From Pseudopyrenochaeta lycopersici (taxonomy: Eukaryota > Ascomycota > Dothideomycetes > Pleosporales > Pseudopyrenochaetaceae), in contig NHZP01000036.1 of the NCBI GenBank assembly GCA_003313425.1, positions 310,001 through 374,000 of the forward strand: a stretch of DNA of 64,000 bases. The letters run 5' to 3'. The notes under the pieces were generated by a model. That model was not told the DNA's origin, made no database searches, and saw only the letters and a list, made by a program, of their open reading frames with translations. Shown piece after piece: positions 560 through 22,982 of this stretch; positions within the stretch are counted from its first letter, which is position 1, and the number at the start of each line of letters is the position of its first letter. A program made the translations under genes and the position numbers.

Positions 560-1341
560 CAACCGAGACCGCTGCCGCAACTGCCGCCGAAGCCCTCCCC
601 CCTAACGATAGCGATATCTCCTCTGATGATGAGCGATATACGGATAATTACGATGCGATTCAGTGGGAAGCGATTAAGCAATATATTAAGCCTCTCCGAA
701 CGCAGAAGAGGCAACCGAGCTGGATCTACAAGTACGAATACCGTGTGGCTTCGCTGAAGAATCCAAAACGGACATTTTTCGTCTGTAGACATTGCCATCT
801 TAAGAAGTCCACTCACAATCATATCTTTGATGTTACATCATCTGTTTCAGCTGCCGCACGCCATCTAGGGATGAACAGACCTGGCCATAGATTGTGTAAG
901 GACGGAAAAGTTACTGTCCAGATGGAGTCCAGTCAACAACACAAACTGATGAGGGCGACCTTCCTCAGGCAGAAGAGGATATTTTGCCTCAGCGATGGTC
1001 ATGTTGTCGTACACTGTGGTCGGTATGATATGCTCAAACGTAGTGATGGAAAGAAATATGGAGATTTCCAAATGCCTGCAAACTTTGAACAATACAATGT
1101 ATTGGGAGAAAAGGATCGATTCGGCCCTTTGATCAGCACGAATGGCCTGGTCTTGTGCAAACCCTGCGCAAAATTCCTTTATATCCTTAAAATCGCTAAA
1201 GACAAAGTCGACTTTCGTGTATGGGAGTCAAAGACGAGGATTGCAGGGTCAGTCGTGTTTCGCGGTAAATTTGAGTCCTTGGAGTTGCGCTGCATCGACC
1301 AAGGCATCTCTATAAGTGAGCATTTGTCCCAAAGGGAATAG
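560..1341 (+). pseudogene. hAT transposase N-terminal region, 5'-truncated copy
   Basis: This is the left-arm copy of the frame at 18750-19625, lacking its first 31 or so codons because the arm starts at 560. The protein has a BED-type zinc-finger pattern typical of fungal hAT transposases: a tryptophan/tyrosine entry (SWIYKYEYRVAS), then FVCRHCHLKK with the first cysteine pair, then AARHLGMNRPGH with the closing histidines. After the finger the frame drifts into sequence without hAT catalytic blocks and stops at 1341. There is no DDE core and no C-terminal dimerisation domain, so it is a relic. A smaller Met-initiated version would start at 745. Confidence 0.7.
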
Positions 1342-2635
1342 GTTCATAGAGTCACGCTCAAGCAAAAACTCCTTGGATTGAGATAAAACTATCTCATTTT
1401 CACTTAGTCAAGACTATTTTTCCCGACACCAGTTAGGAATGGAACATTTTGTCGAGACAATTACTTGATAAGTTACTTTAATTGTAAAGAGCCTATGATT
1501 TCGCACTATCCCACTGCGCATCCCTAGGTCACCGACTCATACTGATTTTGGTTTCCAGCGTTATAAAATTGACTTTACGTATGACCTGGTTTTGTCAAGA
1601 CAAGGCTATCAACAAGGCATGACGAGGTGCCTGTATAGAAGCTTTCCTGAATTGCTCCTCGCGCGCTAATAAAAGGGAGAATACATAACCCATAAATGTG
1701 ATCCCTCCAATTCTTGATCATGGTTTTATGACCCAGGTACTCTAGTACATGGGCCACAGGACACTAACTGTCACCTCTACATCCTCCCATCAAGATAGTA
1801 GTGTCTTTGTAATGTCCATTAACCCAATTTCCCGGACGTATAGCCATCTCACACGGAACACATATGGCGAGCTGATACTGTTTATTATATAGTACGTATT
1901 CTGTTATCTGGCGGCTGTTGTATCGGAGCTTAAGGTCTAACCCTAACATTACCCCAACTTCATACTCCTCAACAACCAAGACTGTTTACATTCCATAATC
2001 TCGCATATAGACTATGAAGCATCCGCTATAGTTTTCTGTAGAGTTTGTGTCATACATGTCGTTAGTAGATTTACAGAAGAATATACCGTCAGGAATGCAC
2101 CGCCGCATTGCGTTTTATGGTTTGTGCCTTTGTGTAATCATGACTTAAAGTAGCGTATGTAGCAAAGAAGACGCCGTGTTCTGGCCTAGGAACCTGAGTG
2201 GTTGTAGAGCCTGAGTAGGGGCTTAAGTAATGTAGTAGAGTTATTAGCATCTCTGGAAACCCTGTAGGCATTAATGCAAGGTGACACTTTTGCGGAGCAG
2301 CGATTTCAAAATCGCGGAGTAGGCCATCCCAAGCACGCGGTTGCAATAACTTCCTGCACACCCAAACAGCACTAACCCACTCTAATTCACACACCTTAAA
2401 ACGCCTCTCTACTTTACAAGTAATAGAGTTCTATAGAACACAACGAGATAACAATAACTAAAAAGATAGAAAGGTTCGAGATGTACTCCCTTTAATCCTT
2501 CTAAGTTTTAGGACAACATCTTATTCTTATATATTACTATGCGGTATACAACGTTGGGGGTGGTGTGATTTTGGTGTGCGGGAAATTACTGCACCAGCGT
2601 GTCAAGCACGTGACGTGTCACGCTAGCTGGCGTCA
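1342..2635. other. AT-rich part of the left arm, no confident gene
   Basis: No intact gene seen. On the minus strand two short frames (1764-1979 and 1575-1757) lie back to back across one stop. The first contains a cysteine pair and a basic/aromatic stretch (AICVPCEMAIRPGNWVNGHY) resembling zinc-binding segments of fungal transposon-associated proteins, but this is weak. A further minus frame (2089-2394, 101 codons) is unrecognised. The mirror region in the right arm is 17456-18749. Confidence 0.3.
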
Positions 2636-2696
2636 TGTCACGCCTGTCACGCCTGTCACGCCTGTCACGCCTGTCACGCCGTCACGCCGTCACGCC
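2636..2696 (+). repeat. Tandem 10-bp repeats, left-arm copy
   Basis: The unit CGCCTGTCAC recurs about four times without interruption and then changes to an 8-bp unit CGCCGTCA. Upstream are related palindromic pieces containing TGACGT and GTCACG. The array lies just upstream of the ATP-grasp-like frame, so it could be a promoter minisatellite. The copy in the right arm (17395-17455) has the same number of units. Confidence 0.85.
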
Positions 2697-2731
2697 AACT
2701 AAGCAACACCCATCTTTGGCCACCGCAATGC

Positions 2732-4031
2732 GTGCGGGAGGAGAGAAGACGGCGCATTGCAGAAGGGCTCTGCACAGCAAGCACGGCTTGTAAAGCGCTA
2801 GCTGACGGCGATAACAACACATGTGCTTGCTGTCGCACTCACAACACGGCCAAGAAGCGAAGGCTGCGGGCTCATCACAGTCTCCAGGCTGCAGGCTTGG
2901 GAACGAAAGAGACTGTGGTTGAAGATGATGACGCACATGGAGGCATACGCATCCACCAAGGCTTTGTCGTCTATCTGGCCTTTAGAGCCCTAAGTAACGG
3001 CCGTACTGTCTCGCACACGTGGGACTGGCTCAAGCAACACATGGACCACGACTTACTCTCCGACGGCATCGATGGCCTGCTTCCGACAGTTTTGTTTCTC
3101 CATTGGACGGCCCAAGAGCCAAAGAGCCGAACGCTAGAAGACGTGTACGCTACGATCCGCACACTAAGACACAAACTCGAAGCTCCGATTCGAGCATATC
3201 CGAACGACACAGAAAGCTGGCAAGAAAGAAACAAGCTTGGAGATATCCGCGCGGTGGACAGCATCGCGCACGCGCAATCAGCTCCGAAAGCGTACGCCTT
3301 CCCACCGAAGACCTGTTATGGACTGGGCCCATGTCAATTGGACGATCACGATCTCACCTACCACAAAAGGACACACAGTGGCTGTGGCGTTCATACTAAG
3401 CTTGAAAAAAGCTCGTCCAGAGGCGAGCTTACTTGTAAACGATCGCACACGGAGCTGCAACAGTCGAAGTCAACAAGAACCAGACCAAAGAAGAACCCAC
3501 AGTCTAAGGATCATAGAATCATTAGATACGAGCACGAGCTCTAAACATTCTTCCCGGTTTCATCAGGTGTATATTCCGTCCTTACGCGAGAATGAGTTCC
3601 GTGTTTTCATAGCTACAGTGCGCGATAGTTCGGGCTTGAGGGGTCGCAGTGGTCAAATCATAGCTACAGCGAAGACTGCTTTCAGCAAAGATGACGAACT
3701 TGCATCACGCTCAGTTGTAGAGCAAGATCTGGGGCCTTCGCTTACCATCTCAGACCTGAACCGCTTCTCGCTTTGGGTCTTTGATCGTCTTCGTGAAAGA
3801 CCCGACTCTATGACCTGCTTTGAGTCACTTGAGGTTGGCCTTCGCCTAGACATAGGTATCGCCACTTTGCCTTCGGGTGACCCACGATTCTTTGTGAATG
3901 AGCTGACGAGGTGGTACGGAGCACATTACTTCTCGCATAACATCTACCCAGAACCAATGACTCAGATATGCAAAGCTTTTGCCGACGCCTTCCACGACTA
4001 TTATCGTAACAGTATGGCGAACATCTTTTGA
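2732..4031 (+). CDS. Conserved fungal accessory protein, ATP-grasp-like C-terminus (left-arm copy; split over two frames)
   Basis: Two overlapping frames appear to be one gene. The first (2732-3544) has a cysteine-rich N-terminus (LCTASTACKALADGDNNTC, then ACC), followed by a middle part ending in a KRTHSGCG motif. The second (coding from about 3480 to 4031) reads EFRVFIATVRD, then FDRLRERPD, FESLEVGLRLDIGI and FFVNELTRWYGAHYFS. The RLDIG...FFVNELTR pattern resembles the metal- and ATP-binding end of ATP-grasp enzymes, but that assignment is inference. The frame change lies at about 3430-3540 and could be an intron or a frameshift. No ATG opens the first frame (2732 is GTG and the frame is open upstream), so the 5' end may be missing. 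The identical copy is at 16060-17359. Confidence 0.45.
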
Positions 4032-4142
4032 TCAGGGAATGATGCAGATAGCTCCCAAAATCATGCTAGTGAGTTGCCCTGTTTGCAATTAACTAACTAA
4101 CTAGGGCAGCTCCTCTACGCAAAGAGACCGCTGGAGTTCCAG

Positions 4143-4463
4143 TTGAAGTGGAGCGGTCTGCTTAAAGACTACAGCCTCCAGCAGGAACTCTGCAGATACC
4201 TGCAAGACAACCAATACCTTACACGCACTGAGTGGGCAGCTGCTTGGACTTCTCACCACCAACACTATAACACCATCACAAGTTCGCCTGTTGAAGGAAT
4301 GCACAAGGTCCTGAAGGACTACCTCATGACTTCGAGAGGCGACTTGCTGCGCGTTATCTTTAACCATATTAATCTCAATAGCGCTCAAGTTGTATCATCC
4401 GCAGACCGTCAGAGTAGTCTACCATCACTAACACGCACTCAACGATTGAGACTGACGAAGTAA
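4143..4463 (+). pseudogene. MULE (Mutator-like) transposase C-terminal fragment, left-arm copy
   Basis: About 106 codons match the region after the DDE core of Mutator-like transposases. The signature is a tryptophan-containing block (TEWAAAWTSHHQHYNT) followed by TSSPVEGMHKVLKDYL and then a GDL motif. Nothing of the catalytic core is upstream, where the ATP-grasp-like gene sits instead. It is a fragment left by truncation or recombination. The mirror copy is 15628-15948. It complements, but is not joined to, the MULE N-terminal part at 23560-24405. Confidence 0.65.
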
Positions 4464-5131
4464 TTTTGACCATACTTTGGAGAAGGATGTGGAAGCGATC
4501 TAACAACAACTTAGCGGTTTGATAACGGAAACGAAAGAATGCATGGCATGTTAGCATGGTATAGCATTTCAACAAAGGGTGCGTTAAAGCTTTATTGCAG
4601 TCAGAACCTCTACTGGGCGGTAAAGATAGACTGGCGTTGATATGGGTACTTTTTACTCCGGTCCCGTTGACGGTAGCCGTCGTCAACGCCATCTCGTTGA
4701 CACTGGACGGAGGGCTCTAACCTCGCACACCAGAGGTCGCAGCTATCCACATGGCACCGCTAGCCGACTCGCCGATGCGTCGCTTGACAGGCAAACAGCA
4801 AAATCGTATGAAAAGAGAAAGCACATCCTGCTGAACATTGAATAATAGGGATAGCCAATAGACTTTGCGACTATATTGTTTCCTACATTGATGTGCATCA
4901 AGTCTAGGTTCCCAGTCACTGCCTTTGTAGGAGTGAGCTATCAGATTCAGCCATGGCCATGGTGCAAGCGGTGTTCATCGATGACGTGGTCGGAGTTCTT
5001 GTGCTGAAGTCATGCAGTTCCTGTGAAGCAGGGCTCCTGGACGCTCACCTTCGCTTGTTCATGACGAGCTCGACGGCAATGGGCTGGCGACTTGATCACC
5101 GGTGGAGGGTATACTTTGTCCTTAGTAAGCG
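4464..5131. other. Left-arm stretch without a recognised gene
   Basis: Only short unconvincing frames. Around 4769-4790 there is a 21-22 bp word (starting CTCGCCGATGCG, ending GCTTGACA) that also occurs near 27390-27411 outside the palindrome, a hint of another dispersed repeat. The mirror region is 14960-15627. Confidence 0.4.
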
Positions 5132-5395
5132 TTAGCCCTCAATAGGCGTGAGAGGTGAGGGGCCTACAAGAGCATCTCGATCTGGCGGCGACCAAGGCTG
5201 GCCTGTCTTATCCATAGATGCGAAAACATTGTATCGACCGTTGCGATACGCTAGGAAGTATATGTCCGCGTCGTATTCGTGGCACAGCTTCGACAGCTTT
5301 CCGTAGAGGGTTTTCAAGAGCTTCTGGTAGTTGTTGTTGGCGGCTCGTCTTGCCTTCGTATGCGCTACCAGCTGGGACTGCGATTGGGACGACAT
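5132..5395 (-). CDS. Small MADS-box-like (SRF-type) protein, left-arm copy
   Basis: 87 codons. The N-terminus is basic and glutamine-rich, then YQKLLKTLYGKLSKLCHEYD is followed by ADIYFLAYRNGRYNVFAS and WSPPDRDALV. This layout matches the many small fungal MADS-like proteins: a basic helix, then K-x-x-x-L-C-x-x-x-x-A/D-I-Y, a beta strand over R-N-G-R-Y, and the W-P-P/S-P-P end. The classical SRF DNA-binding N-arm is poorly conserved, so DNA binding is uncertain. It would act in the nucleus if functional. An identical copy is at 14696-14959, and a decayed C-terminal relic with transition-type changes lies at 39432-39505, so the gene is itself repetitive. Confidence 0.55.
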   Translation of the reverse strand: MSSQSQSQLVAHTKARRAANNNYQKLLKTLYGKLSKLCHEYDADIYFLAYRNGRYNVFASMDKTGQPWSPPDRDALVGPSPLTPIEG

Positions 5396-6110
5396 GGCTG
5401 CAGTGCTGGAAACACGACCTGATCGTCTTGCGTAAACTATGAATGTGAGCGGATGATGAATGGAGTAAGATGTCTATTAAAGTGGCGGTTGCTCTTTCAG
5501 ACCCATGTATCACGCTGGCAAGGGATGGACGCTACCACTGACGACCGCGCTAGAAATCACGCTGGCAGCGACTGTGTGCAATAGCCATGAGCCAGTCCAC
5601 GATGGATGGTAGGTCAACTGTGGTGATACTCTTCAGCGGTTGCGCTTGGCACAACTGCAATGCCATTGTCCGTATGCTGTACCGATAGCAGCGCCGACTG
5701 CGAGTCTGAGAAGATCGCATGCTGGCTGCTAGTGTTGGGAAGCATTTTCCATCAAGACCTATACATGGCGGGCCCTGCAGCTGGTTGGCCGCCTCGTTGG
5801 TGGCAAACAGTCCTGCAGTCTTGTTGAGGGTATGTTCCTTACCATGGGTATGGAGCGCATGATGAACGAAGGTCTTTACAGGCAACGCAATAACAGGGAA
5901 AGCGACAGTGTGCAGAAGGAGAGGAAATGGAGACAAACGGCGGGTGCAACCACATAGGCCTAGTCAAAGAGAGGCTAAGAGTGGAATGAAGGGTGGAGGG
6001 TAAGGACTGCTGAGTGCGGAGTGCGAAATGGGCTCCGCGCCAACGTCGAAAGTGGCCTTTCTTCACACGCAGATCTAAGTTTAGAAGCTTACATATCTTA
6101 CTCCTCCATT
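5396..6110. other. Left-arm repeat sequence flanking the MADS-like gene
   Basis: No gene I can support. The part from about 5940 to 6190 is a dispersed repeat: a diverged relative occurs at 38940-39180 in the same orientation, with many C-to-T/G-to-A differences. Short minus-strand frames (5550-5936, 5839-6141) are probably remnants of that repeat. Confidence 0.45.
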
Positions 6111-6407
6111 TCAAGTATCGCTTGCGAATGTGCCGCAACAACTGATCACTTCTGGTCTCTGTTTCCCTTTTTCTTGTCTTTTAAATGTGTGACTTGAACA
6201 GGTAGCCTCAGCCTCGGCAAGCGTAGGTACTCGTCTCTTGTATTCAGGGCAACCTCTATCACTGGCTTTGTGTGGGCCGGCGCAGTTGGTGCATTTTGGG
6301 GTTTCGGAGGCGCAGTCACTTTCCCCGCGAATCAACTTATTCTTTCTTTGAGCCATACATATCCTCAAGAGTCTTGTCAGTGGCAACGCTCTCCGTATCC
6401 CTACCAC
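6111..6407 (-). pseudogene. LINE (Tad1/I-like) ORF1 zinc-knuckle fragment
   Basis: The minus-strand frame contains CTNCAGPHKASDRGCPEYKR, a C-x2-C-x3-H-x6-C zinc knuckle of the kind found near the C-terminus of ORF1 (gag-like) proteins of fungal non-LTR retrotransposons. The frame has no N-terminal half and no adjacent reverse transcriptase. It crosses the inner edge of the palindrome at 6137/6138. Its 3' part belongs to the arm, its zinc knuckle only to the left side. Confidence 0.55.
6138..6226 (+). repeat. Diverged extension of the inverted repeat, left side
   Basis: Past the identical arm, homology to the reverse complement of 13865-13953 continues for about 90 bp, but now with scattered substitutions and a 2-bp indel (for example AAATGTGTGACTTG against AAACGTGTGAGACTTG). 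Beyond about 6226 the two sides are unrelated. The switch from identity to clear divergence within one homologous stretch marks the edge of a homogenised tract. Confidence 0.85.
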
Positions 6408-6792
6408 GGGAACGTCGACTCAATAAGTCAAGGTCACTTCGCATGGACGCATAATTGCTCATAATAGTTGTAGGGACTAGCACTTGGCGACCAGGGCAAT
6501 CAGCAAGAGTGAGGAATAACGGCTGGTACTAAACTGACACTGAAACTCATCTAACCAATCTTATGTCCTGGCATTGCTGATGCAATTTTCCGCCTCCAGC
6601 ACACGGGTTTTGAAGTGGGTGAAACTTCTGCCAAACTGAATAATTAAGAGACCTATCCTGTCTGCTTCACCTTGCTTATTAATTCAGATTCTCCAACGTT
6701 GTTTGCACAACTTGCTTGTCGAGTACGGTAAGGTATTCTTACTATGCTAAACAGGTTACCCATGTATGAGCCGGCGACGCACCAGAAGGTAT

Positions 6793-7056
6793 TTAGGTGG
6801 ACACTTCTTCTCTGCGCTTCTTACCGCCTAAATTGAACACCACTTCCCGAACATGTTGTATTTCTACCCCAATTTCACTAATCTGTGACTCAACTTGACT
6901 GCGTACAGAACCCGAGATTTTCTCTTGGCTTAGCGCAGACTCTGCATGAGCAAGGTCTCGTTGGAGGCGATTGATTTCCTCCATTATTCCTTGGATGTCC
7001 CTGCAAAACCCGTTGCTTGAGAACTCATCATTTGCTGCTCCAGTCGGGCACTCCAT
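6793..7056 (-). CDS. Short coiled-coil protein or gene fragment, unknown
   Basis: 87 codons with a heptad-like pattern from about residue 18 (IQGIMEEINRLQRDLAHAES, then VRSQVESQISEIG and IQHVREVV) and a basic C-terminus (GGKKRREEVST). Frames flanking it are closed. It could be the last exon of a STAND-type or cytoskeletal protein, but no diagnostic motif is present. It lies in the palindrome spacer and so is single-copy here. Confidence 0.25.
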   Translation of the reverse strand: MECPTGAANDEFSSNGFCRDIQGIMEEINRLQRDLAHAESALSQEKISGSVRSQVESQISEIGVEIQHVREVVFNLGGKKRREEVST

Positions 7057-9387
7057 TTCTTTAGTGGCAATTTGAACCCAGCAAATCCCGACCGTGTCTA
7101 CAGATGGTTAGAGTGAGAGATAAATATCGCATAGACCTCTATTCCCCTAATCACTTACGCCTTCTTTGAATAGGTAATCCGATGGAATGAAGATCAAATG
7201 GTGGTATGGATGCATATATCTACACCAGAATGATCAGTCAAGGCACAAGAGCAGGTCGGAGCGAGCCATGCGTCCTTCAATCGCTGCAATTATTAAGATG
7301 ATCAAATCATAGTCAAGCGAAACGATAAGTCCTTCATTTCGAACGGTACGCCTGATTGCATGACACACGCCATGCAAACCTAAAGTTACCTAGTAACTGT
7401 TCCCGTTCTAGCCAGATTTGTAGACTAGGTTATCAAAGTGGTGTGATTTTAGGGCTAAGATGGTATTTGCGCAAGGAACCACGACCAAGCTAAAAATAAT
7501 TATGATAAGTCTTCGAGGATTTGTGTAGTCCCTAATAGTTGAAAGTGTCGACCTGGCTCGTGAAGGCTGAATCTATGATCAAAGCTCGTCATTGGCGGGA
7601 AGAGAGGATCATGGGTCTTTGTATACCAGTTCTAGATCTTTAGCTCGTGACAACCTGCATTAGACTGGTTCCCGCGAATGCAATTTTCTTCCCTTATGGA
7701 CGAGTGGAAACGCAAACCGTTGGTCGCTAGGGTCTATCGGCGAGCTTACTGATAAATATGCCCGAACTTTGGGAGCTTCGGAAAGCTCCGAAACATGTAC
7801 TGTTGACAATCTCAAGCTTATTTCTTCCATCAAGTCAAACTCTATACAATTAAGGGGGAATCCATAGGCGGATTGTTCCGCCTCCGTGCGATTCTTAGAA
7901 AGCGACGCGGAATAGGCTCTTTCTTGCTCTCTCCGAGAAGTCGTTGGTTGTATTTTGGCTGGATGGCCGGGAAGTAGGGGTGGCGGAAAATAGGGGACCG
8001 AGCTTGCTTTGGGGGCGAAGGGGATTTCTGCTCTCCGGAGGATTCTTCCGAGCCTATCGATGACTTTGGTGAGCGGCGATCACAGGCAGCTCCTGTGCTT
8101 CCAAGCCACGAACAGGAGTGATAGCCGCGCAGCAAAGTTTACGGTACTTGAGGAAAGGAAACGGGAGAAGAGTTCCGAAAACTTCTACTTGATGCATGAG
8201 GGTACGGCTAACAAGTCAGTTTTTTGTTATTTTTTCCCCATGAATTAGCAGAGGTGGGGTGACATACATGGAGTGCGGGACGGCAGCCACTGTGGTGGCG
8301 CTGCTTAGATCGGAGTTAAACCTTCAACTTTTATCTCATAGTTTCTTATTGCCATTCCCTAAACCGTCTTTATCACAATGCGGAATGGCACCATGCACGA
8401 TTTATATTGGACTTGAAACGAGATCTTCGACGTAAAACAACGCTACCGTTCTCACCTTTCTAAATCATCTTCTCCTGCGCTCAAGCGCTATCCAGCTGTA
8501 GAGCGTTTCATCGTTTGGCTGTGATGTGCTCTCGGTCTGGGTCTAGGGTTTGGCGGGAGAACGGAAATGTCAGAAGGAACGATGTGGCGTGAAGCTAGTT
8601 CCCATCGAAAACGTATCAGGCTGTCCAATTCCTTCCCGCTCTGATCGTATGGAAGAAAGTTGGGAGTAGCATCTCAGTTTTCCGTCCGAGGAGCGCATAA
8701 CGCATAGAACACAACTTAGCATCTAAGTTCGGGTTACGTTCGAGGAATTCTAGTTTCTTCAGTGAACGAGTCTGAAGTTTTCAGTGATACTTGATGAAAA
8801 TTCATCGCGAATGGTTCGTCATAGAGAGACTTGTCTTCGCTGTCTCGCGATTTAGTGTTCAAGCCACCTTAACGCTAACAGAAATCTAATCTTCGGATAT
8901 CAGGTTTTTCGTGCCATGAGCAATTCCGATCCCTCGCGGTTCCTAGTGCATCGACGTATATAGGTTAGCTTACAGATCGCTCCTCTTTCATCAAACTGTA
9001 TTGTTTAAAGCATCAAATCAGCGGCGCAGATAGGAGTGAGTGGCGGGACTTAACCAACCTTTACAACGAAAAAGTCCACCAAAGCAGGATAGCAGTCATG
9101 AGGCCCACGCAAAAGTTCAATTCAGCCACTTTGCCGTCTGCCACCTGCCACCTGCATGATCACTACCTGCTAAGCTTTACTGTTTATTGGCCAATACTGC
9201 CGTCTGGGTCTTAGGACTCTATCGTCACGAATCTGATACCAAGATTGTTGCATATATTGTTCTGCTCTCAGCCCAAGATGACTCTCATCCGAAATTTGAA
9301 ATAATGTCATCCTCATCTGAGGCTCCATACATTTGTCCCATCTTTCACGTTAGGAATATTTGTAACTTCTCATTCGACTCTTCCAGT
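7057..9387. other. Long non-coding stretch of the spacer
   Basis: I see no gene, transposon or RNA. A minus frame at 7842-8135 and a plus frame at 8009-8248 overlap in opposite directions and have no recognisable motif. The last 200 bp, up to 9387, are an open frame upstream of the Ecl1-like gene and probably its 5' leader. Confidence 0.45.
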
Positions 9388-9831
9388 ATGGCTTTAGAAA
9401 TTGACGGGTTCCCAAGTTTCTGTCTAATCTGCGAGAGGCAGATCGATCAGGGCGTGTATTGCTCTAGCACATGCTGTTTAGCCGATATCAAGAACACGAA
9501 AGGCTCGCGAAAAACGCCCCCTCTTGTATTCTACCTTCCTCCTCCCATCAACTTCACGGCCTATAGCTGTTCAAGCGGAGTCGAAAGGTGTTTCACCAGG
9601 TCGCATCCAGAGCCAAGCCCACCGACTATGCGCATTCCCCCCTCCAAAAAAGACACATCCTCCTGTCGATTTATAACTTCTTCGGTGCTAGAGAGCATTG
9701 TAACACGTGGGTTATCTTCTAAGGCATCCGGAGAACTCGAGTCCTACTTCGGTTCCTTCGACCGTATCCGTGAGCTAAAGAGGCAAAGGATTTTACACAC
9801 CCATCGAATTTGGTTAGGTCAACATCAGTAA
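9388..9831 (+). CDS. Ecl1-family (extender of chronological lifespan) zinc-binding protein
   Basis: 147 residues from the ATG at 9388. The start is chosen because family members begin only a few residues before the first cysteines. The N-terminal motif FCLICERQ...YCSSTC (Cys 12, 15, 25 and 29) followed by LAD matches the Ecl1 type F-C-L-x-C-x-x-Q ... Y-C-S-x-x-C-R-x-x-D, here with a cysteine in place of the usual Arg after the last Cys. A proline/serine-rich middle contains FYLPPP, and the C-terminus ELESYFGSFDRIRELKR matches the conserved helix of filamentous-fungal homologues. In Schizosaccharomyces pombe, Ecl1 proteins extend chronological lifespan and respond to nutrient and zinc limitation; that role here is inferred. 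It is single-copy in the palindrome spacer. Confidence 0.7.
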   Translation: MALEIDGFPSFCLICERQIDQGVYCSSTCCLADIKNTKGSRKTPPLVFYLPPPINFTAYSCSSGVERCFTRSHPEPSPPTMRIPPSKKDTSSCRFITSSVLESIVTRGLSSKASGELESYFGSFDRIRELKRQRILHTHRIWLGQHQ

Positions 9832-9948
9832 AGGGGATGAGATCTCAAGGAAGAGAGCAGAGGAAATTGTATTTGAATAAAAGATCATCACGGTGCGATC
9901 GTTGTCGTATACGATGTGCTCCATCCGCCTGATGTCGAATGGCTATCG

Positions 9949-10341
9949 TTAGAAGCTTCTTGGCGGAGACCAAAAATTTCCCTCATCTGTAATGAGCTTT
10001 TTGGCTGCTGAGAAAACCCGCTCTACCTCACTACTCATCGCTGGTATTGAGAAGGTATCGAAAGCCATACATGCTAAGACTGGAAAGTCAGTTTGATGCT
10101 CCTTCCACCAGGCGATTGGACTCTTTAATCCCTGAAGCCTGGGATCAAATGTCCGTAAGTAGTTGTGGACCAGAGGTTGTGGAGGCATCTCAGACACAGA
10201 GGCACTGGCTGAAAGCACGTCTTGTAAATTAAGCGAAATTGCACATATTCTCGTAGTATGATTGGCGAATATCTCACGCTTTGCACTCTTTGCGACCGAA
10301 CCGCGGCACGTTGCGGGGACAACCAATATCGGCAATGCCAC
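9949..10341 (-). pseudogene. hAT transposase C-terminal dimerisation domain, fragment
   Basis: The minus frame ends with PIAWWKEHQTDFPVLACMAF, then IPAMSSEVERVFSAAKKLIT, the hallmark hAT C-terminal (hATC) block W-W-x4-Y/F-P-x-L-x-x-x-A-x-D-x-L-S-I-P-x-x-S-x-x-x-E-R-x-F-S. No catalytic core is upstream. It may be a separate insertion or a distant part of the same hAT family as the arm fragments; this cannot be decided from the sequence alone. Confidence 0.75.
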
Positions 10342-10689
10342 ATCAGATAGACTGATTGGATCTGGCCCGTATGAGATATCTAAATGTCATCTGATTGACG
10401 TCGGACGGATTGACTGTTGCCAGCACTGGTTGTAGATGTCCCTTTCTCATTTCTGTTGACCAGAGATTACAAGCGGTGCTCGCGTGATAGAGGTGAGGCC
10501 CTGCGAGCTATTGATAAAGGTAGCGAGCTCAGCTTTGTATGAGGCAGCGAGTGGTGCAAACATCACATCTCAGTATACGCCATCCTCGCCATCCTCGCTG
10601 ATTTTGAAATGTGTATGAATCTCCCGTATTGGTTGTCGTCAAATGGTTCTTGGTTAGCGATATACAGCCACACGCAGTCAACCGCTTGA

Positions 10690-12461
10690 TCAGCCAAATG
10701 CAGGATTCCCGTGGGCGATGCAGTCGCGCGGAAGGTCCTGTAAAATGTTAGTATCGCCACAAGGTATTGCGTCGAACCCACGTACTCGAACCACAACAGA
10801 TCCAGCGCGCACAATGGCGCCACCACCAATCCTGACGCCAGCTTCAATGATGCAGCCATCACCAATATAAACATTCTCACCAATCCATACGTCTTGAGCG
10901 GCCTCAGCACCGTTGCTTCCTTTCAAAGCCTTAGTATCGGTGGGTGTCTTTAAAGTTGAAATCGTGATACGAGCGCCAATTTTGGTGTTCCTTCCAATGG
11001 CTATCCGTCCAGAGTCGAGTAATTGGCAGTCTGATCCGATAACCACGTTATCAGCAATAGAGAGATTGTAGCCATATTCGCAGTGGAAAGGTGCTATAAC
11101 GTGTACGTTTCTGCCAAGGTGACCAATTATAGGACGCTCTTCAGCATGGGGCGGTATCCATCTTGCTGCTATGATGGTCTTGAGGCAGCGTCCGAGCTCT
11201 TCCTTTGCGATAACCACTGTGGCGTTGGCAGTACTGTTGAATTGATATACCGCTCTTGTGCAATGTGCACGTTCGTCCACCAACTGCCTATCAAATGGTA
11301 AGAAGGGCTGGCCAGCCAACATTTTCTCTTTCTCAGATTTCTGGATCAACGGCTGCGGTACAAGTTGGATTGGTGGTACACTCGACGGCGCAGTAGTGGG
11401 AGGAGCTATTGAAGATGGAAGCGGTGACAGCGGCGACAGCCGCTGAGAGTGCTGTACAACCCAATAGTGTTGGATTGAAACATTAGCGGCTCTAGAACAA
11501 CGTGAGCTGATTGACAATTATCGGGGTCTCTGAAGGCACACGCGACACCCAACCAGAGAGAGGAGATCCAGGATAAGACAGACTGGATACCCACATTGAC
11601 TTGAGAATGACTTACATAACTGGTGATGGGGTATGGGCAACCACGTGGCCTAGGCTTTGTGGTGCGTGATAGTACAGTTGTGGATTGTGCCGTTGATGTG
11701 GTGGCTCTTGGGAGCGAGATACAGGCTGACCTTGCGTTGCGTGCCTCTCATGGGCTGGGTCGTCAGGAGCTTGGGCATACGGCGATGTATGTTCAGGAGG
11801 GCACGAGACTCTCAGCAGAGGTGGTGGCGCTTGCTCACTCTCGTCACTGTCACCACAGTTGCTAGCCACTGCTGAGTTAAGCTCATGTTCTTCAGCGGCG
11901 ATGGACAGTCCACGAGTGCCACTATGGCCTATTGGGGTTGCTGCTCTGCATGCCGTGTGAGTGCTGTGAGCAGTTCCACAGAGGGGTATGTGGATCTGAG
12001 TGCAAATCGGACACCGATTGTAGACTGCAGCGATCTGCTCCTTTGCCTGTGTGGGTGGTGGAGGCTTTGTGATTCCCTTTTTCGGCCAGTACGTTCTGTT
12101 TGCATAGCCCTCACAAACAAAGCCACCTCGCGTACAGTTGGCACCTAATCATTGTATCAGACGACTATAAGGTATAGCACTTTGCTTGAAACTTACATTC
12201 AGGTTTCGCTTCATCGCACTTCTTCTTTCGTTTCCGACATGTTCCACAACCAGTCTTAGTTCGGTGTGCGAATTGCTGCCCGAAGTCAGTTTAGTCATGA
12301 AGTATTCCAACAGAACATACCCTCTTCGTTTTCTTCAATGACACCTGTACGCCCGCTCGGGTCACCTCGTATGCGTTGGTGTCTGCAAAGCCATTTGAGT
12401 CATTCGTACCACCCGTGGTGGCGTGCAACAGCGGTGGCCCGCCGTTCTGGAATGGCTCCAT
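10690..12461 (-). CDS. Zn2Cys6 transcription-factor domain fused to a maltose-acetyltransferase-type hexapeptide acyltransferase
   Basis: Five exons (12461-12321, 12275-12197, 12144-11616, 11491-10786, 10737-10690), all with GT...AG introns, join to 1,503 nt, an exact multiple of three, encoding 500 residues. Residues about 57-84 form a complete Zn2Cys6 cluster (GCGTCRKRKKKCDEAKPECA, then NCTRGGFVCEGY). A Pro/Gln-rich linker follows. The Mac domain starts at EKEKMLAGQPFLPFD and LVDERAHC. Then come left-handed beta-helix hexapeptide turns (IIGHLGRNVHVIAPFHCEYG, VVIGSDCQL, VWIGENVYIGDGC, VRIGGGAIVRAGSVVV) and an end DCIAHGNPA. The last intron (48 nt) is in frame. Known members of the acetyltransferase family transfer acetyl from acetyl-CoA to sugar hydroxyls; the N-terminus predicts nuclear, sequence-specific DNA binding. 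The C-terminus is a little shorter than usual after GNPA. It is flanked by hAT debris but looks intact. Confidence 0.85.
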
Positions 12462-13864
12462 TATGTACAGTTCACGACTTTTTCATTCTTGCTGGACGCT
12501 CCGTGGCATCTGCGGCGGGTTCAGCAGCCCATCGTTTCTCGGCCTCTGAGGAGCTTTGACGGGGTAGGGTCCGCTGTTCAAGATTCGGACTCTCAAGCGA
12601 CCTGTTCCTGCTAGGAGATTTTGGTATCCGTTCTCAGGCGGTCTGAACAAAGAGCCTAAAGTGGCCACTGCATGTGTTGCTGGCTTCTGGTTTTTGGAGA
12701 TATGGCTCAGGAGGCTCTGAGCACGGACGGAAGCGGAAGGTTTTCTAAGCCAAGTGTCGTATGCTGGAACGGAAAACTTGGCAATGGCCTGGGCTTGATG
12801 TTGCTTGATGTGCTCCGTTATAGTCGAGTATCGATAGAGATGCCTAAAGCCTGAAATCATTCGCCACAGCCAGACGTTGGGTGAGGCGCGAGAGTGGATA
12901 AGAGTGCACAACGAGTGACGAAACTCCAGACGCCAGGCACCGCTTGCCGCGGGCAGCGACTGAGCAGGGGGTCGCTCCTCACTAGGGGCAGAGAGGACCT
13001 GCAGCACAATTGGACCGAACCGCTCCAACCCCCACTTATTATTCGGGTCACCCGAACAGCCATAGCAGCGCTTAAATCTAGATGGGAAGGCTTCGGCACA
13101 CATTCGCGCGGATGATTCGCGTGTACTCGCCTAAAGCTGCTTTGTGAGTGCAGATTCGAGTGGTTTTGCTGGGCGATTTGGCCAACGCGGAACGCCGCGT
13201 TTGCTTATCACATGTTGAGTGCTTCGGGCTGCTAATTAGTGGAGATAGACCTGCTAGCATGCCTTCCTGGATTTGCATCAAACGCGCAAGAGCGGCTTGC
13301 CGTCCACCGAAGCTGCCTCTAAGTTAGGGACGCACAAGCGTGAATTTTGGCGCGGTGCCCGGCCTGCCCATTCCCCTCGATGACGCATGGCAGCTCCAGC
13401 ATTCTCAAGGTGGTCCGATGCACTCTGATCCCAGCAACGGCTCAGTCTTGTGAGGCTGCTATAAAATCCCTCTATGAAGAGGGATTCCTTGATTTGCGTG
13501 ACTCGGAAGTTGGAGATCTTTACGTGGATACAGGAGATAAGAGAGGGGAAGAAGTTTTTTGAGAGAACAACTTCGTGGGTGCTCGATGACGATGATGGAT
13601 TACAAGGATTGTTTGCACGGGTTTTCCACGGCAACGTTGCTGCGGGATCTCGGGGACGATGATCACATTCCTTTTTAGAGTATCGTTCCTTTTAGTGTAT
13701 CGGCGCGTGCAGCAAGAAAGGAACTCTTGGACAATTGATTAGTTCCTTATTCATCAAAGTATAGTCGAGTGGTAAGACCACTCAGCGCCACTCACCACCC
13801 GCTAGGAAGTAAGCGTCTACTATCATGTTAACTTAGTATTTCAAGCCATGCCCCTCGAGCACAT
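12462..13864. other. Spacer region upstream of the Zn2Cys6 gene
   Basis: No gene I can support. A 206-codon minus frame (12483-13103) lies directly upstream of the Zn2Cys6 gene start but has no motif and an amino-acid make-up like translated noncoding DNA. It probably covers promoter and leader. Another minus frame (13278-13634) overlaps plus frames and is likewise unrecognised. Confidence 0.4.
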
Positions 13865-13953
13865 ACGCTTGCCGAAGCTTAGGCTACCTGTTCAAGTCTC
13901 ACACGTTTAAAAGACAAGGAAAAGGGAAACAGAGACCAGAAGTGATCAGTTGC
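13865..13953 (-). repeat. Diverged extension of the inverted repeat, right side
   Basis: Reverse-complement partner of 6138-6226, with about one difference per ten bases plus a 2-bp indel. It ends at about 13865, where the sequence becomes unrelated to the left side. Confidence 0.85.
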
Positions 13954-14695
13954 TGCGGCACATTCGCAAGCGATACTTGAAATGGAGGAGTAAGATATGT
14001 AAGCTTCTAAACTTAGATCTGCGTGTGAAGAAAGGCCACTTTCGACGTTGGCGCGGAGCCCATTTCGCACTCCGCACTCAGCAGTCCTTACCCTCCACCC
14101 TTCATTCCACTCTTAGCCTCTCTTTGACTAGGCCTATGTGGTTGCACCCGCCGTTTGTCTCCATTTCCTCTCCTTCTGCACACTGTCGCTTTCCCTGTTA
14201 TTGCGTTGCCTGTAAAGACCTTCGTTCATCATGCGCTCCATACCCATGGTAAGGAACATACCCTCAACAAGACTGCAGGACTGTTTGCCACCAACGAGGC
14301 GGCCAACCAGCTGCAGGGCCCGCCATGTATAGGTCTTGATGGAAAATGCTTCCCAACACTAGCAGCCAGCATGCGATCTTCTCAGACTCGCAGTCGGCGC
14401 TGCTATCGGTACAGCATACGGACAATGGCATTGCAGTTGTGCCAAGCGCAACCGCTGAAGAGTATCACCACAGTTGACCTACCATCCATCGTGGACTGGC
14501 TCATGGCTATTGCACACAGTCGCTGCCAGCGTGATTTCTAGCGCGGTCGTCAGTGGTAGCGTCCATCCCTTGCCAGCGTGATACATGGGTCTGAAAGAGC
14601 AACCGCCACTTTAATAGACATCTTACTCCATTCATCATCCGCTCACATTCATAGTTTACGCAAGACGATCAGGTCGTGTTTCCAGCACTGCAGCC

Positions 14696-14959
14696 ATGTC
14701 GTCCCAATCGCAGTCCCAGCTGGTAGCGCATACGAAGGCAAGACGAGCCGCCAACAACAACTACCAGAAGCTCTTGAAAACCCTCTACGGAAAGCTGTCG
14801 AAGCTGTGCCACGAATACGACGCGGACATATACTTCCTAGCGTATCGCAACGGTCGATACAATGTTTTCGCATCTATGGATAAGACAGGCCAGCCTTGGT
14901 CGCCGCCAGATCGAGATGCTCTTGTAGGCCCCTCACCTCTCACGCCTATTGAGGGCTAA
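14696..14959 (+). CDS. Small MADS-box-like (SRF-type) protein, right-arm copy
   Basis: Identical to the minus-strand gene at 5132-5395: 87 residues with the KLSKLCHEYDADIYFLAYRN core and the WSPPDRDAL end. The ATG at 14696 is the first Met after a stop and fits the usual short basic N-terminus. It points outward, away from the spacer, like its left-arm twin. Confidence 0.55.
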   Translation: MSSQSQSQLVAHTKARRAANNNYQKLLKTLYGKLSKLCHEYDADIYFLAYRNGRYNVFASMDKTGQPWSPPDRDALVGPSPLTPIEG

Positions 14960-15627
14960 CGCTTACTAAGGACAAAGTATACCCTCCACCGGTGATCAAG
15001 TCGCCAGCCCATTGCCGTCGAGCTCGTCATGAACAAGCGAAGGTGAGCGTCCAGGAGCCCTGCTTCACAGGAACTGCATGACTTCAGCACAAGAACTCCG
15101 ACCACGTCATCGATGAACACCGCTTGCACCATGGCCATGGCTGAATCTGATAGCTCACTCCTACAAAGGCAGTGACTGGGAACCTAGACTTGATGCACAT
15201 CAATGTAGGAAACAATATAGTCGCAAAGTCTATTGGCTATCCCTATTATTCAATGTTCAGCAGGATGTGCTTTCTCTTTTCATACGATTTTGCTGTTTGC
15301 CTGTCAAGCGACGCATCGGCGAGTCGGCTAGCGGTGCCATGTGGATAGCTGCGACCTCTGGTGTGCGAGGTTAGAGCCCTCCGTCCAGTGTCAACGAGAT
15401 GGCGTTGACGACGGCTACCGTCAACGGGACCGGAGTAAAAAGTACCCATATCAACGCCAGTCTATCTTTACCGCCCAGTAGAGGTTCTGACTGCAATAAA
15501 GCTTTAACGCACCCTTTGTTGAAATGCTATACCATGCTAACATGCCATGCATTCTTTCGTTTCCGTTATCAAACCGCTAAGTTGTTGTTAGATCGCTTCC
15601 ACATCCTTCTCCAAAGTATGGTCAAAA
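14960..15627. other. Right-arm stretch without a recognised gene
   Basis: Mirror of 4464-5131. No convincing coding region or RNA. Confidence 0.4.
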
Positions 15628-15948
15628 TTACTTCGTCAGTCTCAATCGTTGAGTGCGTGTTAGTGATGGTAGACTACTCTGACGGTCTGCGGATGATACA
15701 ACTTGAGCGCTATTGAGATTAATATGGTTAAAGATAACGCGCAGCAAGTCGCCTCTCGAAGTCATGAGGTAGTCCTTCAGGACCTTGTGCATTCCTTCAA
15801 CAGGCGAACTTGTGATGGTGTTATAGTGTTGGTGGTGAGAAGTCCAAGCAGCTGCCCACTCAGTGCGTGTAAGGTATTGGTTGTCTTGCAGGTATCTGCA
15901 GAGTTCCTGCTGGAGGCTGTAGTCTTTAAGCAGACCGCTCCACTTCAA
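15628..15948 (-). pseudogene. MULE transposase C-terminal fragment, right-arm copy
   Basis: Identical to 4143-4463, with the SSPVEGMHKVLKDYL signature of Mutator-like transposases. It is a fragment only, with no catalytic core. Confidence 0.65.
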
Positions 15949-16059
15949 CTGGAACTCCAGCGGTCTCTTTGCGTAGAGGAGCTGCCCTAGTTAGTTAGTT
16001 AATTGCAAACAGGGCAACTCACTAGCATGATTTTGGGAGCTATCTGCATCATTCCCTGA

Positions 16060-17359
16060 TCAAAAGATGTTCGCCATACTGTTACGATAATAGTCGTGGA
16101 AGGCGTCGGCAAAAGCTTTGCATATCTGAGTCATTGGTTCTGGGTAGATGTTATGCGAGAAGTAATGTGCTCCGTACCACCTCGTCAGCTCATTCACAAA
16201 GAATCGTGGGTCACCCGAAGGCAAAGTGGCGATACCTATGTCTAGGCGAAGGCCAACCTCAAGTGACTCAAAGCAGGTCATAGAGTCGGGTCTTTCACGA
16301 AGACGATCAAAGACCCAAAGCGAGAAGCGGTTCAGGTCTGAGATGGTAAGCGAAGGCCCCAGATCTTGCTCTACAACTGAGCGTGATGCAAGTTCGTCAT
16401 CTTTGCTGAAAGCAGTCTTCGCTGTAGCTATGATTTGACCACTGCGACCCCTCAAGCCCGAACTATCGCGCACTGTAGCTATGAAAACACGGAACTCATT
16501 CTCGCGTAAGGACGGAATATACACCTGATGAAACCGGGAAGAATGTTTAGAGCTCGTGCTCGTATCTAATGATTCTATGATCCTTAGACTGTGGGTTCTT
16601 CTTTGGTCTGGTTCTTGTTGACTTCGACTGTTGCAGCTCCGTGTGCGATCGTTTACAAGTAAGCTCGCCTCTGGACGAGCTTTTTTCAAGCTTAGTATGA
16701 ACGCCACAGCCACTGTGTGTCCTTTTGTGGTAGGTGAGATCGTGATCGTCCAATTGACATGGGCCCAGTCCATAACAGGTCTTCGGTGGGAAGGCGTACG
16801 CTTTCGGAGCTGATTGCGCGTGCGCGATGCTGTCCACCGCGCGGATATCTCCAAGCTTGTTTCTTTCTTGCCAGCTTTCTGTGTCGTTCGGATATGCTCG
16901 AATCGGAGCTTCGAGTTTGTGTCTTAGTGTGCGGATCGTAGCGTACACGTCTTCTAGCGTTCGGCTCTTTGGCTCTTGGGCCGTCCAATGGAGAAACAAA
17001 ACTGTCGGAAGCAGGCCATCGATGCCGTCGGAGAGTAAGTCGTGGTCCATGTGTTGCTTGAGCCAGTCCCACGTGTGCGAGACAGTACGGCCGTTACTTA
17101 GGGCTCTAAAGGCCAGATAGACGACAAAGCCTTGGTGGATGCGTATGCCTCCATGTGCGTCATCATCTTCAACCACAGTCTCTTTCGTTCCCAAGCCTGC
17201 AGCCTGGAGACTGTGATGAGCCCGCAGCCTTCGCTTCTTGGCCGTGTTGTGAGTGCGACAGCAAGCACATGTGTTGTTATCGCCGTCAGCTAGCGCTTTA
17301 CAAGCCGTGCTTGCTGTGCAGAGCCCTTCTGCAATGCGCCGTCTTCTCTCCTCCCGCAC
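16060..17359 (-). CDS. Conserved fungal accessory protein, ATP-grasp-like C-terminus (right-arm copy; split over two frames)
   Basis: Identical to the left-arm gene at 2732-4031, including the frame change, so both copies share the same state and the change preceded the duplication or was spread by conversion. The C-terminal part carries RLDIGI and FFVNELTRWYGAH. The first part has a CACC/LCTASTACK cysteine cluster. Confidence 0.45.
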
Positions 17360-17394
17360 GCATTGCGGTGGCCAAAGATGGGTGTTGCTTAGTT

Positions 17395-17455
17395 GGCGTG
17401 ACGGCGTGACGGCGTGACAGGCGTGACAGGCGTGACAGGCGTGACAGGCGTGACA
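17395..17455 (-). repeat. Tandem 10-bp repeats, right-arm copy
   Basis: Reverse complement of the array at 2636-2696 with the same number of units. Because such arrays change length quickly, equal counts argue for a very recent common origin of the arms. Confidence 0.85.
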
Positions 17456-18749
17456 TGACGCCAGCTAGCGTGACACGTCACGTGCTTGACACGCTGGTGC
17501 AGTAATTTCCCGCACACCAAAATCACACCACCCCCAACGTTGTATACCGCATAGTAATATATAAGAATAAGATGTTGTCCTAAAACTTAGAAGGATTAAA
17601 GGGAGTACATCTCGAACCTTTCTATCTTTTTAGTTATTGTTATCTCGTTGTGTTCTATAGAACTCTATTACTTGTAAAGTAGAGAGGCGTTTTAAGGTGT
17701 GTGAATTAGAGTGGGTTAGTGCTGTTTGGGTGTGCAGGAAGTTATTGCAACCGCGTGCTTGGGATGGCCTACTCCGCGATTTTGAAATCGCTGCTCCGCA
17801 AAAGTGTCACCTTGCATTAATGCCTACAGGGTTTCCAGAGATGCTAATAACTCTACTACATTACTTAAGCCCCTACTCAGGCTCTACAACCACTCAGGTT
17901 CCTAGGCCAGAACACGGCGTCTTCTTTGCTACATACGCTACTTTAAGTCATGATTACACAAAGGCACAAACCATAAAACGCAATGCGGCGGTGCATTCCT
18001 GACGGTATATTCTTCTGTAAATCTACTAACGACATGTATGACACAAACTCTACAGAAAACTATAGCGGATGCTTCATAGTCTATATGCGAGATTATGGAA
18101 TGTAAACAGTCTTGGTTGTTGAGGAGTATGAAGTTGGGGTAATGTTAGGGTTAGACCTTAAGCTCCGATACAACAGCCGCCAGATAACAGAATACGTACT
18201 ATATAATAAACAGTATCAGCTCGCCATATGTGTTCCGTGTGAGATGGCTATACGTCCGGGAAATTGGGTTAATGGACATTACAAAGACACTACTATCTTG
18301 ATGGGAGGATGTAGAGGTGACAGTTAGTGTCCTGTGGCCCATGTACTAGAGTACCTGGGTCATAAAACCATGATCAAGAATTGGAGGGATCACATTTATG
18401 GGTTATGTATTCTCCCTTTTATTAGCGCGCGAGGAGCAATTCAGGAAAGCTTCTATACAGGCACCTCGTCATGCCTTGTTGATAGCCTTGTCTTGACAAA
18501 ACCAGGTCATACGTAAAGTCAATTTTATAACGCTGGAAACCAAAATCAGTATGAGTCGGTGACCTAGGGATGCGCAGTGGGATAGTGCGAAATCATAGGC
18601 TCTTTACAATTAAAGTAACTTATCAAGTAATTGTCTCGACAAAATGTTCCATTCCTAACTGGTGTCGGGAAAAATAGTCTTGACTAAGTGAAAATGAGAT
18701 AGTTTTATCTCAATCCAAGGAGTTTTTGCTTGAGCGTGACTCTATGAAC
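17456..18749. other. AT-rich part of the right arm
   Basis: Mirror of 1342-2635. Two consecutive plus frames (18112-18327 and 18334-18516) are separated by a single stop and contain the AICVPCEMAIRPGNW segment. They might be one decayed transposon-associated gene. Nothing else recognised. Confidence 0.3.
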
Positions 18750-19625
18750 CTATTCCCTTTGGGACAAATGCTCACTTATAGAGATGCCTTGGTCGATGCA
18801 GCGCAACTCCAAGGACTCAAATTTACCGCGAAACACGACTGACCCTGCAATCCTCGTCTTTGACTCCCATACACGAAAGTCGACTTTGTCTTTAGCGATT
18901 TTAAGGATATAAAGGAATTTTGCGCAGGGTTTGCACAAGACCAGGCCATTCGTGCTGATCAAAGGGCCGAATCGATCCTTTTCTCCCAATACATTGTATT
19001 GTTCAAAGTTTGCAGGCATTTGGAAATCTCCATATTTCTTTCCATCACTACGTTTGAGCATATCATACCGACCACAGTGTACGACAACATGACCATCGCT
19101 GAGGCAAAATATCCTCTTCTGCCTGAGGAAGGTCGCCCTCATCAGTTTGTGTTGTTGACTGGACTCCATCTGGACAGTAACTTTTCCGTCCTTACACAAT
19201 CTATGGCCAGGTCTGTTCATCCCTAGATGGCGTGCGGCAGCTGAAACAGATGATGTAACATCAAAGATATGATTGTGAGTGGACTTCTTAAGATGGCAAT
19301 GTCTACAGACGAAAAATGTCCGTTTTGGATTCTTCAGCGAAGCCACACGGTATTCGTACTTGTAGATCCAGCTCGGTTGCCTCTTCTGCGTTCGGAGAGG
19401 CTTAATATATTGCTTAATCGCTTCCCACTGAATCGCATCGTAATTATCCGTATATCGCTCATCATCAGAGGAGATATCGCTATCGTTAGGGGGGAGGGCT
19501 TCGGCGGCAGTTGCGGCAGCGGTCTCGGTTGGCGCCTCAGGGAGAGCGCTACGGAGCTCCTCGAAGGTTTGAATATTTTCCAGTGTATCACGGGTGCGCT
19601 TTTTCGATCGGGCTTGACATGGCAT
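18750..19625 (-). pseudogene. hAT transposase N-terminal region with BED zinc finger, longer copy
   Basis: 291 codons from the ATG at 19625. A nuclear-type basic start (RSKKRTRDT) and an acidic linker (DSDISSDDERYTDN) precede the BED-like finger (FVCRHCHLKK ... AARHLGMNRPGH). Downstream there is no recognisable RNase-H-like core and the frame ends after about 170 more residues, so it is a truncated gene or a composite of a hAT N-terminus with unrelated sequence. The 94 bp between 19532 and 19625 lie outside the palindrome and are unique to this copy. Confidence 0.65.
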
Positions 19626-20031
19626 GGTAGAGGTCTTTAACGGAGAAGTTAGGCCCGAGGAAGTTCCAGTATTAAAGGGTTTAAGCCAATCACAATCTCC
19701 CAGCTGAATATCGAGGATATGCCTCCTTGTTCCACTTGTACGATGATGGGACTAGATCCATTTGACGAGAAAAGCTAGAGAAGCTTTTTAGGCGGTGATT
19801 ACGTAGCTAGATATTGCAACAGTACGTGCTAATGGAAGAAAAGAGAGATGCTTGTTCTAGTGTAGTAGTAAGCCAACTCGTTTTGTCTGGGCAAATCTGT
19901 TGCCCTAGTTTAGACTTGTCGGTATAGTCGTCGCTAGATTTACAGTCACGCGTCAAAAGTTTTGGTTGCTAAGCGAGCTCACATGAAACACGCTGCACAA
20001 CCTTTTTACTTCAACCACCACCCAGAATGCC
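19626..20031. other. Outer flank of the right arm
   Basis: Probable 5' sequence of the hAT relic. No terminal inverted repeat or gene identified. Confidence 0.4.
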
Positions 20032-20480
20032 ACCACGTCGTTAATTTGGCGCAGAAATCTTAGGGAATGCCCCTAGAGGGCCTAATTTAACGCCCTTACA
20101 GCGATAAGCAATCATCTCCAAAGCTGAGGCTGGTGTCTCAGTTGCAGAGCTAGTTACTGAGTTCAATCGTTCACCCAACTGCATCCGCACCACCATTAGA
20201 CTTAGCCAAAAACGCGCAACACGCGATGAGGCACCTTGTACTGCCGTCCTCCAATCCTATTACCTTATTAGAAAAGGATCATCTATCGCACAGTGCGCGC
20301 GTAGCCAAAGATTGAGTACTCAGACCTAGCTCAAGTAGACGTGGTTGTCAACTCAGATGGCACCTCCTCAAAGCTACCTAGTCGCAGCACACTGTACCGG
20401 ACACTCAAGAGCCGAGGCCTAACTAATTATTGCTATAAGAAGCGCCTAAAGCTGTCTATAGATCATGCTAAGTAGTGGCG
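20032..20480 (+). pseudogene. Tc1/mariner transposase N-terminal relic
   Basis: Reading across frames gives PRGPNLTPLQR, then an HTH-like stretch AGVSVAELVTEFNRSPNCIR and later NSDGTSSKLPSRSTLYRTLK followed by GLTNY. This is the order seen in fungal Tc1/mariner transposases (compare the intact gene at 46333-47460, which has RRGPNLTVQQR and CSRTLYKYLKGQGLTK). Stops and frameshifts interrupt it and the catalytic half is absent. Its terminal repeats were not found. Confidence 0.65.
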
Positions 20481-22469: not shown

Positions 22470-22982
22470 GGACCACAACTGTTGCAAACAGGCCAAAGAT
22501 TAATCTGAGGAGGCCACGGAACACTACACGCTTAATAAATGACTAGGAGGGTATCACCGTTATGTATGAATCTGTTTCCACCGCATCCTCATCGAACAAT
22601 CCCTTCCATCATCTGGTCTGAACTGTCTTATTCGAGATTCAGGGCGGCAGCTCACCGTTCACATGAAGCCGTGGCGCAATCAGCAGCCAAGCCAGCAGCA
22701 ATGTGCTTCTTTTTGTTGCGGAGGCTAACTCTTAAGGTTACTAGTACGGGGCTAACGCACATTTAAGGAAAGGTCATTGCGGGCTTTATGGGATTTGCCA
22801 GAGGCGAATTTCGAGCCACATCATGGACCGATAAGCACGGAAGCATCGATTACTAATAGTGGAATCCTGGGGTTCTGACACAAAACCTGATTGGCTAGTT
22901 CTGCCTGTTAACATGCAGGCTTGTGTCACATTACGACGAGGGGCGCTTTATCGCTCATGAATCCAATGCTTCGGGCAACACT

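Follow-up and report, generated by a model that had tools for sequence, protein, structure and literature searches.

A difference-free 5.6-kb palindrome in Pseudopyrenochaeta lycopersici, probably made by copying the right arm over an older left locus

The accessory chromosomes of Fusarium oxysporum f. sp. lactucae carry large inverted repeats, and hAT elements surround some of the duplications (PMC13104227). A palindrome is reported between 500 and 550 kb on accessory chromosome 14 of Zymoseptoria tritici, with outward-facing Copia remnants on its flanks (PMC3681731), and in Candida albicans long inverted repeats drive copy-number change (PMC7371428). We analysed a stretch of 64,000 bp of Pseudopyrenochaeta lycopersici DNA, called the window below, which corresponds to positions 310001-374000 of contig C36 (NHZP01000036.1; 530,887 bp) in an assembly of 62.7 Mb in 188 contigs, position 1 being C36:310001. 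Near its left end lies a palindrome (palindrome 1) with exactly identical 5.6-kb arms, whose left arm was probably overwritten by a copy of the right one. Fragility and a tendency to trigger further rearrangement are expected of long exact inverted repeats such as these.

Palindrome 1 shares with the F. oxysporum f. sp. lactucae case the nearly identical inverted duplications, the transposon-rich DNA and the transposons at the boundaries, but the duplications there are reported to range from 20 to 500 kb, the inverted pair measuring 500 kb, while the arms considered here are 5.6 and 12 kb, with alleles that could be read at the edges (PMC13104227). Like the chromosome 14 structure of Z. tritici, flanked there by transposon remnants, it is a fungal palindrome, and unlike in the passages on that structure, which contain no such assignment, a donor and a recipient arm could be assigned (PMC3681731). 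Arms more than 99.9% identical and multi-kilobase conversion tracts are also features of the human Y palindrome P6, although P6 is an old palindrome whose repeated conversion was followed in many lineages, compared with one genome and one proposed event here (PMC3723533). In human inverted copy-number variants, too, the inverted copy is joined at repeats or microhomology, but one junction lies in inverted repeats and the copy-number patterns are different, whereas palindrome 1 has homology at both of its junctions (PMC10766186). Palindromes of this size made by conversion in a filamentous fungus were not found in the literature searched, as judged from titles only. The kind of event is already known; its recurrence, the exact identity and the unusually clear edges make up the interest of the present case.

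The earlier note on this DNA, made from the letters alone, had described inverted 5.6-kb arms around a 7.8-kb spacer and had asked for a full arm-to-arm alignment. This alignment detected no mismatch and no indel in 5,578 of 5,578 bases between the left arm (560-6137, + strand) and the reverse complement of the right arm (13954-19531, - strand), and the description was thus borne out. The paired coordinates all summed to 20091, the perfect match ended exactly at 560/19531 on the outer side and 6137/13954 on the inner side, and the single-copy spacer between the arms (6138-13953) measured 7,816 bp. A 9-bp tandem array had the same number of units in both arms (7.0 at 2636-2696, + strand; 7.0 at 17395-17455, - strand). 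Chance is not the source of an exact match of 5.6 kb.

The surrounding region is a mosaic of repeats, the pieces of which are called E, X, M, Y and U for reference only; repeat counts taken from genome matches are lower bounds. Pieces of the arms occurred elsewhere in the assembly as stretches shorter than the arm, the longest among the matches listed for both arm halves being 1,882 bases on contig C43, and the nearest other copies reached at most 98% identity over stretches longer than 500 bp among the same matches. The spread of these repeats therefore long predates the arms. The recent origin proposed in the earlier note is supported by the lack of any difference between the arms. From its repeat content, C36 may be part of an accessory chromosome.

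The comparison with related copies on other contigs identified the right arm as native at both edges. At the inner edge (13953/13954), the right side was contiguous with C57 (98.4% over 13359-14361) and C97 (92.2% over 12349-15084). At the outer edge (19531/19532), it was contiguous with C68 over 17680-21031 (95.9%) and over 18800-22858. The multi-copy element E of the right side (19152-19703, - strand) also continues beyond the arm end at 19531 to 19703, where besides C68 at least 18 matches covered the whole stretch (query 353-904) and one more spanned query 353-900. The flanks of the right arm were thus unchanged, and the proposal that this arm is the source was upheld at both edges by its relatives. 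A left arm acting as donor is contradicted by both edges.

At first sight a drop in identity to C68 spoke against a seamless right arm, as C68 matched at 94.1% inside the arm and at 98.1% outside it. A breakpoint at 19531 was rejected, since most of this drop was a patch in C68 resembling repeat-induced point mutation (RIP): of the 109 C68 differences inside the arm, 94 were C-to-T or G-to-A changes, the T or A being the base of C68. After removal of the RIP-like differences, 15 remained in 1,852 positions inside the arm and 8 in 1,500 outside.

RIP-like changes were compared in 13 copies (C68, C97, C10, C6, C57, C43, C46, C25, C51, C41, C73, C62 and C36). Counts of transitions in which the other copy had T gave a clear RIP-like pattern in C68 (114 vs 10) and C97 (191 vs 10), with CpA context at 84 of 114 and 129 of 191 sites, respectively, against a background in the arm of 803 CpA among 2,707 C (30%). 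C10 (82 vs 33) and C6 (46 vs 17) leaned in the same direction, and no CpA skew of the RIP type was detected in the nine other copies of the 13 compared (C57, C43, C46, C25, C51, C41, C73, C62 and C36). The RIP-like mutations in relatives, together with the 62.7-Mb genome, fit the fungal nuclear setting assumed in the earlier note. In Neurospora, RIP targets duplications of at least 400 bp (PMC10294615), and arms of the present length would therefore be targets. Either the copying postdates the last RIP cycle here or RIP has been lost in this lineage.

The left arm showed the opposite picture, beginning with its outer edge. The last 85 bases of segment U (475-559, + strand) are joined there to a copy of E cut at 560 (560-939, + strand), and the same junction 559|560 was present on C55 (475-1016, 99%) and C28 (475-939, 98%). 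Upstream of the junction, C28 and C55 have about 1.6 kb in common, which is the extent of the stretches compared, and the window has only the final 85 bases. This cut junction and the U tail held in common with C28 and C55 indicate that the left locus was once a relative of these loci. When 20 sequences were aligned, only the two arms had C at position 656 and A at position 737, and these private alleles from 656 on place the exchange point within 560-655. C55 has the arm allele at 816 and also the stretch 940-1016 in common with the arms. The claim that a hAT gene is cut in the left arm thus held as to the cut; the junction, found also on C28 and C55, is not new, and the hAT label of the arm ORF found no support from Pfam, which gave no match for it or for any of the five arm ORFs submitted. 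The possibility that U ends at a transposon terminus at 559 was considered and rejected, as a search for a matching inverted terminus found none.

The inner edge lies within repeat X (4354-6233 on the left, + strand). Homology between the two sides extends beyond the arms for 96 bases inward (6138-6233) at about 93% identity, with seven substitutions and one 2-base gap, and ends where segment M starts. Diagnostic sites were chosen by aligning 5730-6233 with ten X copies and taking positions at which at least four of five subfamily-1 copies (L011, L020, L013, L014 and L017) differed from both subfamily-2 copies (L015 on C97 and L050 on C57); L012, L018 and L016 were aligned but left out of the site choice. 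As the groups were picked after an earlier alignment had been seen, this was a consistency test and not a blind one. Nine sites qualified, and the right side had the subfamily-2 allele at all nine. Both arms carried the subfamily-2 allele at five of five sites within them (5847, 5877, 5886, 6095 and 6105), while at 6138, 6209, 6213 and 6226 (four of four) the left side was subfamily 1 and its counterpart on the right (13858-13953, - strand) subfamily 2. One exchange between 6105 and 6138 therefore explains all nine sites, and 6138-6233 (+ strand) would be an unconverted 96-bp remnant of the X that belonged to the left locus. Changes at 6186, 6190 (the 2-base gap) and 6229 were found in the left remnant only, and the difference at 6172 was non-discriminating because C57 has the left base there.

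Both edges of the left arm thus look older than the copy they enclose, and homology existed at both ends in donor and recipient before the event, in E on the outer side and in X on the inner side. We consider that the left arm was formed by ectopic gene conversion or homology-directed gap repair, in which the right arm was copied over an older left locus, with a probability of roughly 65% on sequence evidence. The left locus would at first have consisted of the U tail followed by a truncated E on the outer side, older sequence in the middle and a subfamily-1 X on the inner side. A break or gap in this locus may have been repaired from the right locus, which lies 7.8 kb away and would have served as template in inverted orientation. 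The broken ends would have found homology in E on one side and X on the other, copying would have covered about 5.5 kb, and the left arm would have turned into an exact inverted copy. The pathway may have resembled synthesis-dependent strand annealing, or have been a short break-induced replication closed by the second homology. Given zero differences, the copying would be later than any mutation or RIP event leaving a trace in the arms. The alleles support the identity, the right-to-left direction and the position of both exchange points inside pre-existing homology; the break, the pathway, the lack of a crossover and the earlier content of the left locus are what we infer.

Among the three origins that the earlier note had offered, gene conversion is therefore the best fit. 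A simple or plain inverted duplication is disfavoured because the left edges carry a foreign X subfamily and a junction known elsewhere, and the recipient already had matching ends; a special mobile unit did not hold up either, as discussed below.

A second palindrome adjoins the window. When C36 was read over 120 kb (304001-424000) for inverted pairs, one further exact pair was detected at C36:373964-385932 and 390716-402684, identical at 11,969 of 11,969 bases around a spacer of 4,783 bp. The first 37 bases of its left arm are the last of the window (63964-64000, + strand), and in an assembly search the query C36:374001-378000 matched just the two arms of this palindrome. Contigs C42 and C55 were contiguous with the left arm across the inner edge, where this arm looks native; at its outer flank no relative spanning the edge was found. 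A terminus of element Z (CATGTCTG) directly precedes the right arm; on C55, C42 and C70 the sequence beyond this terminus is unrelated. A hAT dimerisation domain lies in Z near that terminus. In C55 an 8-bp duplication (CCCACGCT) is found on both sides of Z, and no such duplication was present around Z in C36 (AGTACTAC before, ATCCCAGA after) or in C42. The right outer arm end AGTAAGAAAAC resembles a repeat, W, which reads AGTAACAAAAC in C5 (10/11) and AGGAACAAAAC in C41 (9/11), and short microhomology with W may have joined this edge. Palindrome 2 too looks like the result of inverted copying, which would have started from a transposon terminus and been closed without long homology. It recalls the composite insertions made by alternative transposition of the maize hAT element Ac in that a copied segment is joined exactly to a hAT-type terminus, but differs in having one terminus only and a junction without an 8-bp duplication; the maize model is inapplicable to palindrome 1 (PMC4270019).

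The ORFs in the arms of palindrome 2 matched a DegT/DnrJ/EryC1 aminotransferase, DUF3605, an NAD-dependent epimerase, an MFS transporter and a histidine phosphatase. The sugar-aminotransferase (DegT family) and NAD-epimerase ORFs lie near one another in the arm, at L053:1427-5775 (C36:375427-379775).

Repeat W occurs twice on C41 in opposite orientations, and a third pair (palindrome 3) was found on this contig. It was sampled within C41:384900-399661 (L062, L063 and L065-L071) rather than read throughout. The stretch 388400-389400 was identical to 395161-396161 at 1,001 of 1,001 bases, and further samples agreed at 501/501 (386900-387400), 61/61 (384900) and 61/61 (390300). Chance-level agreement was obtained at 380900 (22/61), over the middle (243/981) and at ten 25-base points (2-10/25). 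If continuous, palindrome 3 would have arms of about 5.5-6.2 kb and a spacer of about 3.6-3.8 kb. Two other close same-contig pairs were compared and proved imperfect, one inverted on C56 (98.7% over 2,324 bases) and one direct on C88 (99.9% over 2,252).

Several points weigh against the conversion of the left locus by the right arm in a single event. Identity alone fits one copying event or repeated conversion alike, and the state of the left locus before the event is reconstructed from a single genome. The switch of X alleles could also be produced by another exchange between X copies, and, given the likeness of C55 to the arms, similarity between the old left locus and the right one may have extended beyond E and X. 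A crossover inverting the spacer is compatible with the data as well, as identical arms would leave little trace of the inversion. That other pairs in this assembly are exactly identical too is compatible with a shared assembly cause.

The strongest competitor, though an unlikely one, is an old inverted repeat held identical by recurrent arm-to-arm gene conversion in the manner of the mammalian Y, with only the latest conversion being seen. The arm identity (5,578/5,578) is above the 99.9% typical of such arms, palindrome 2 and all sampled stretches inside palindrome 3 are exact as well, and the 96-bp edge would be a part left unconverted. However, the left arm ends in sequence of other lineages, namely the U|E junction and X subfamily 1, which argues against an origin of the pair in one inverted duplication, and the 120 kb examined contained no intermediate inverted pair (e.g. 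99.5-99.9%). Slightly less probable still is an assembly artefact, in which reads of the right arm were used twice, with E and X as the points of entry and exit. Misassembly of regions of this type is known (PMC13104227), both edges of palindrome 1 lie in repeats, and the pairs found were exactly identical. On the other hand, the inner homology available for such an error is just 96 bp long and diverged (about 93%), the edges of palindrome 2 fall outside shared homology, and among the matches listed none starts less than 10 kb from a contig start (the smallest value being 10,811; far ends covered only for contigs of known length).

An inversion with staggered breaks, leaving an inverted duplication at each breakpoint, is very improbable: the model yields perfect inverted arms around a single-copy spacer, but predicts one new and one old junction per arm, and in palindrome 1 the left arm has two junctions foreign to the donor and the right arm two native ones. 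It was rejected for this wrong placement of the foreign junctions. Least credible of all is a composite mobile element bounded by terminal inverted repeats of 5.6 kb, which would suit the symmetric ends and the transposon-rich content and was rejected because the edges lie inside E and X rather than at termini, no target-site duplication was found at the outer ends of palindrome 1, where the flanks differ, and the matches listed included neither a second copy of the whole unit nor copies with the same ends. A Fusarium mimp-type terminal motif gave 0 matches in the window at up to three mismatches.

Taken beyond palindrome 1, copying from a neighbouring segment suggests a more general idea, which we put forward tentatively and hold to be less likely than its opposite: perfect palindromes whose arms measure about 5-12 kb may form a class in the repeat-rich contigs, made by inverted copying of a neighbour segment into a break and possibly kept identical by conversion. 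The entry points would be homologous repeats in palindrome 1, and a hAT terminus with short microhomology in palindrome 2. If true, accessory regions would grow by a standing mechanism, inverted copying, that escapes RIP between sexual cycles. Palindrome 1 itself is an unusually legible record of a possible origin of perfect palindromes in a fungal genome, with donor, recipient and both exchange points readable from alleles. Because a second and a sampled third pair exist, some copies of the same repeats carry RIP-like marks and the arms are free of differences, such arms could serve as a clock of recent inverted copying in transposon-rich regions.

The spacer of palindrome 1 contains two repeated segments. 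Segment M (6234-9947) is also present on C41 and C73, at about 99% identity counted over aligned bases, and contains an ORF of the Ecl1 family, a family of TORC1 inhibitors, at 9160-9831 (Pfam PF12855). Segment Y (10568-13857) is continuous with X on C97 and partly on C57; part of it occurs again on C36 at 409093-411745, and its ORF at 10690-11517 carries a maltose-acetyltransferase cap and hexapeptide repeats. No tRNA gene was detected in the window by ARAGORN (bacterial code). To the left of palindrome 1, an ORF with a metallo-beta-lactamase fold was found at L051:1066-1995 (C36:305066-305995). Farther right, exact inverted repeats of 69 bp at 47538-47606 and 49341-49409, each with a 17-bp direct repeat, lie 1,734 bp apart and resemble the terminal repeats of a small transposon.

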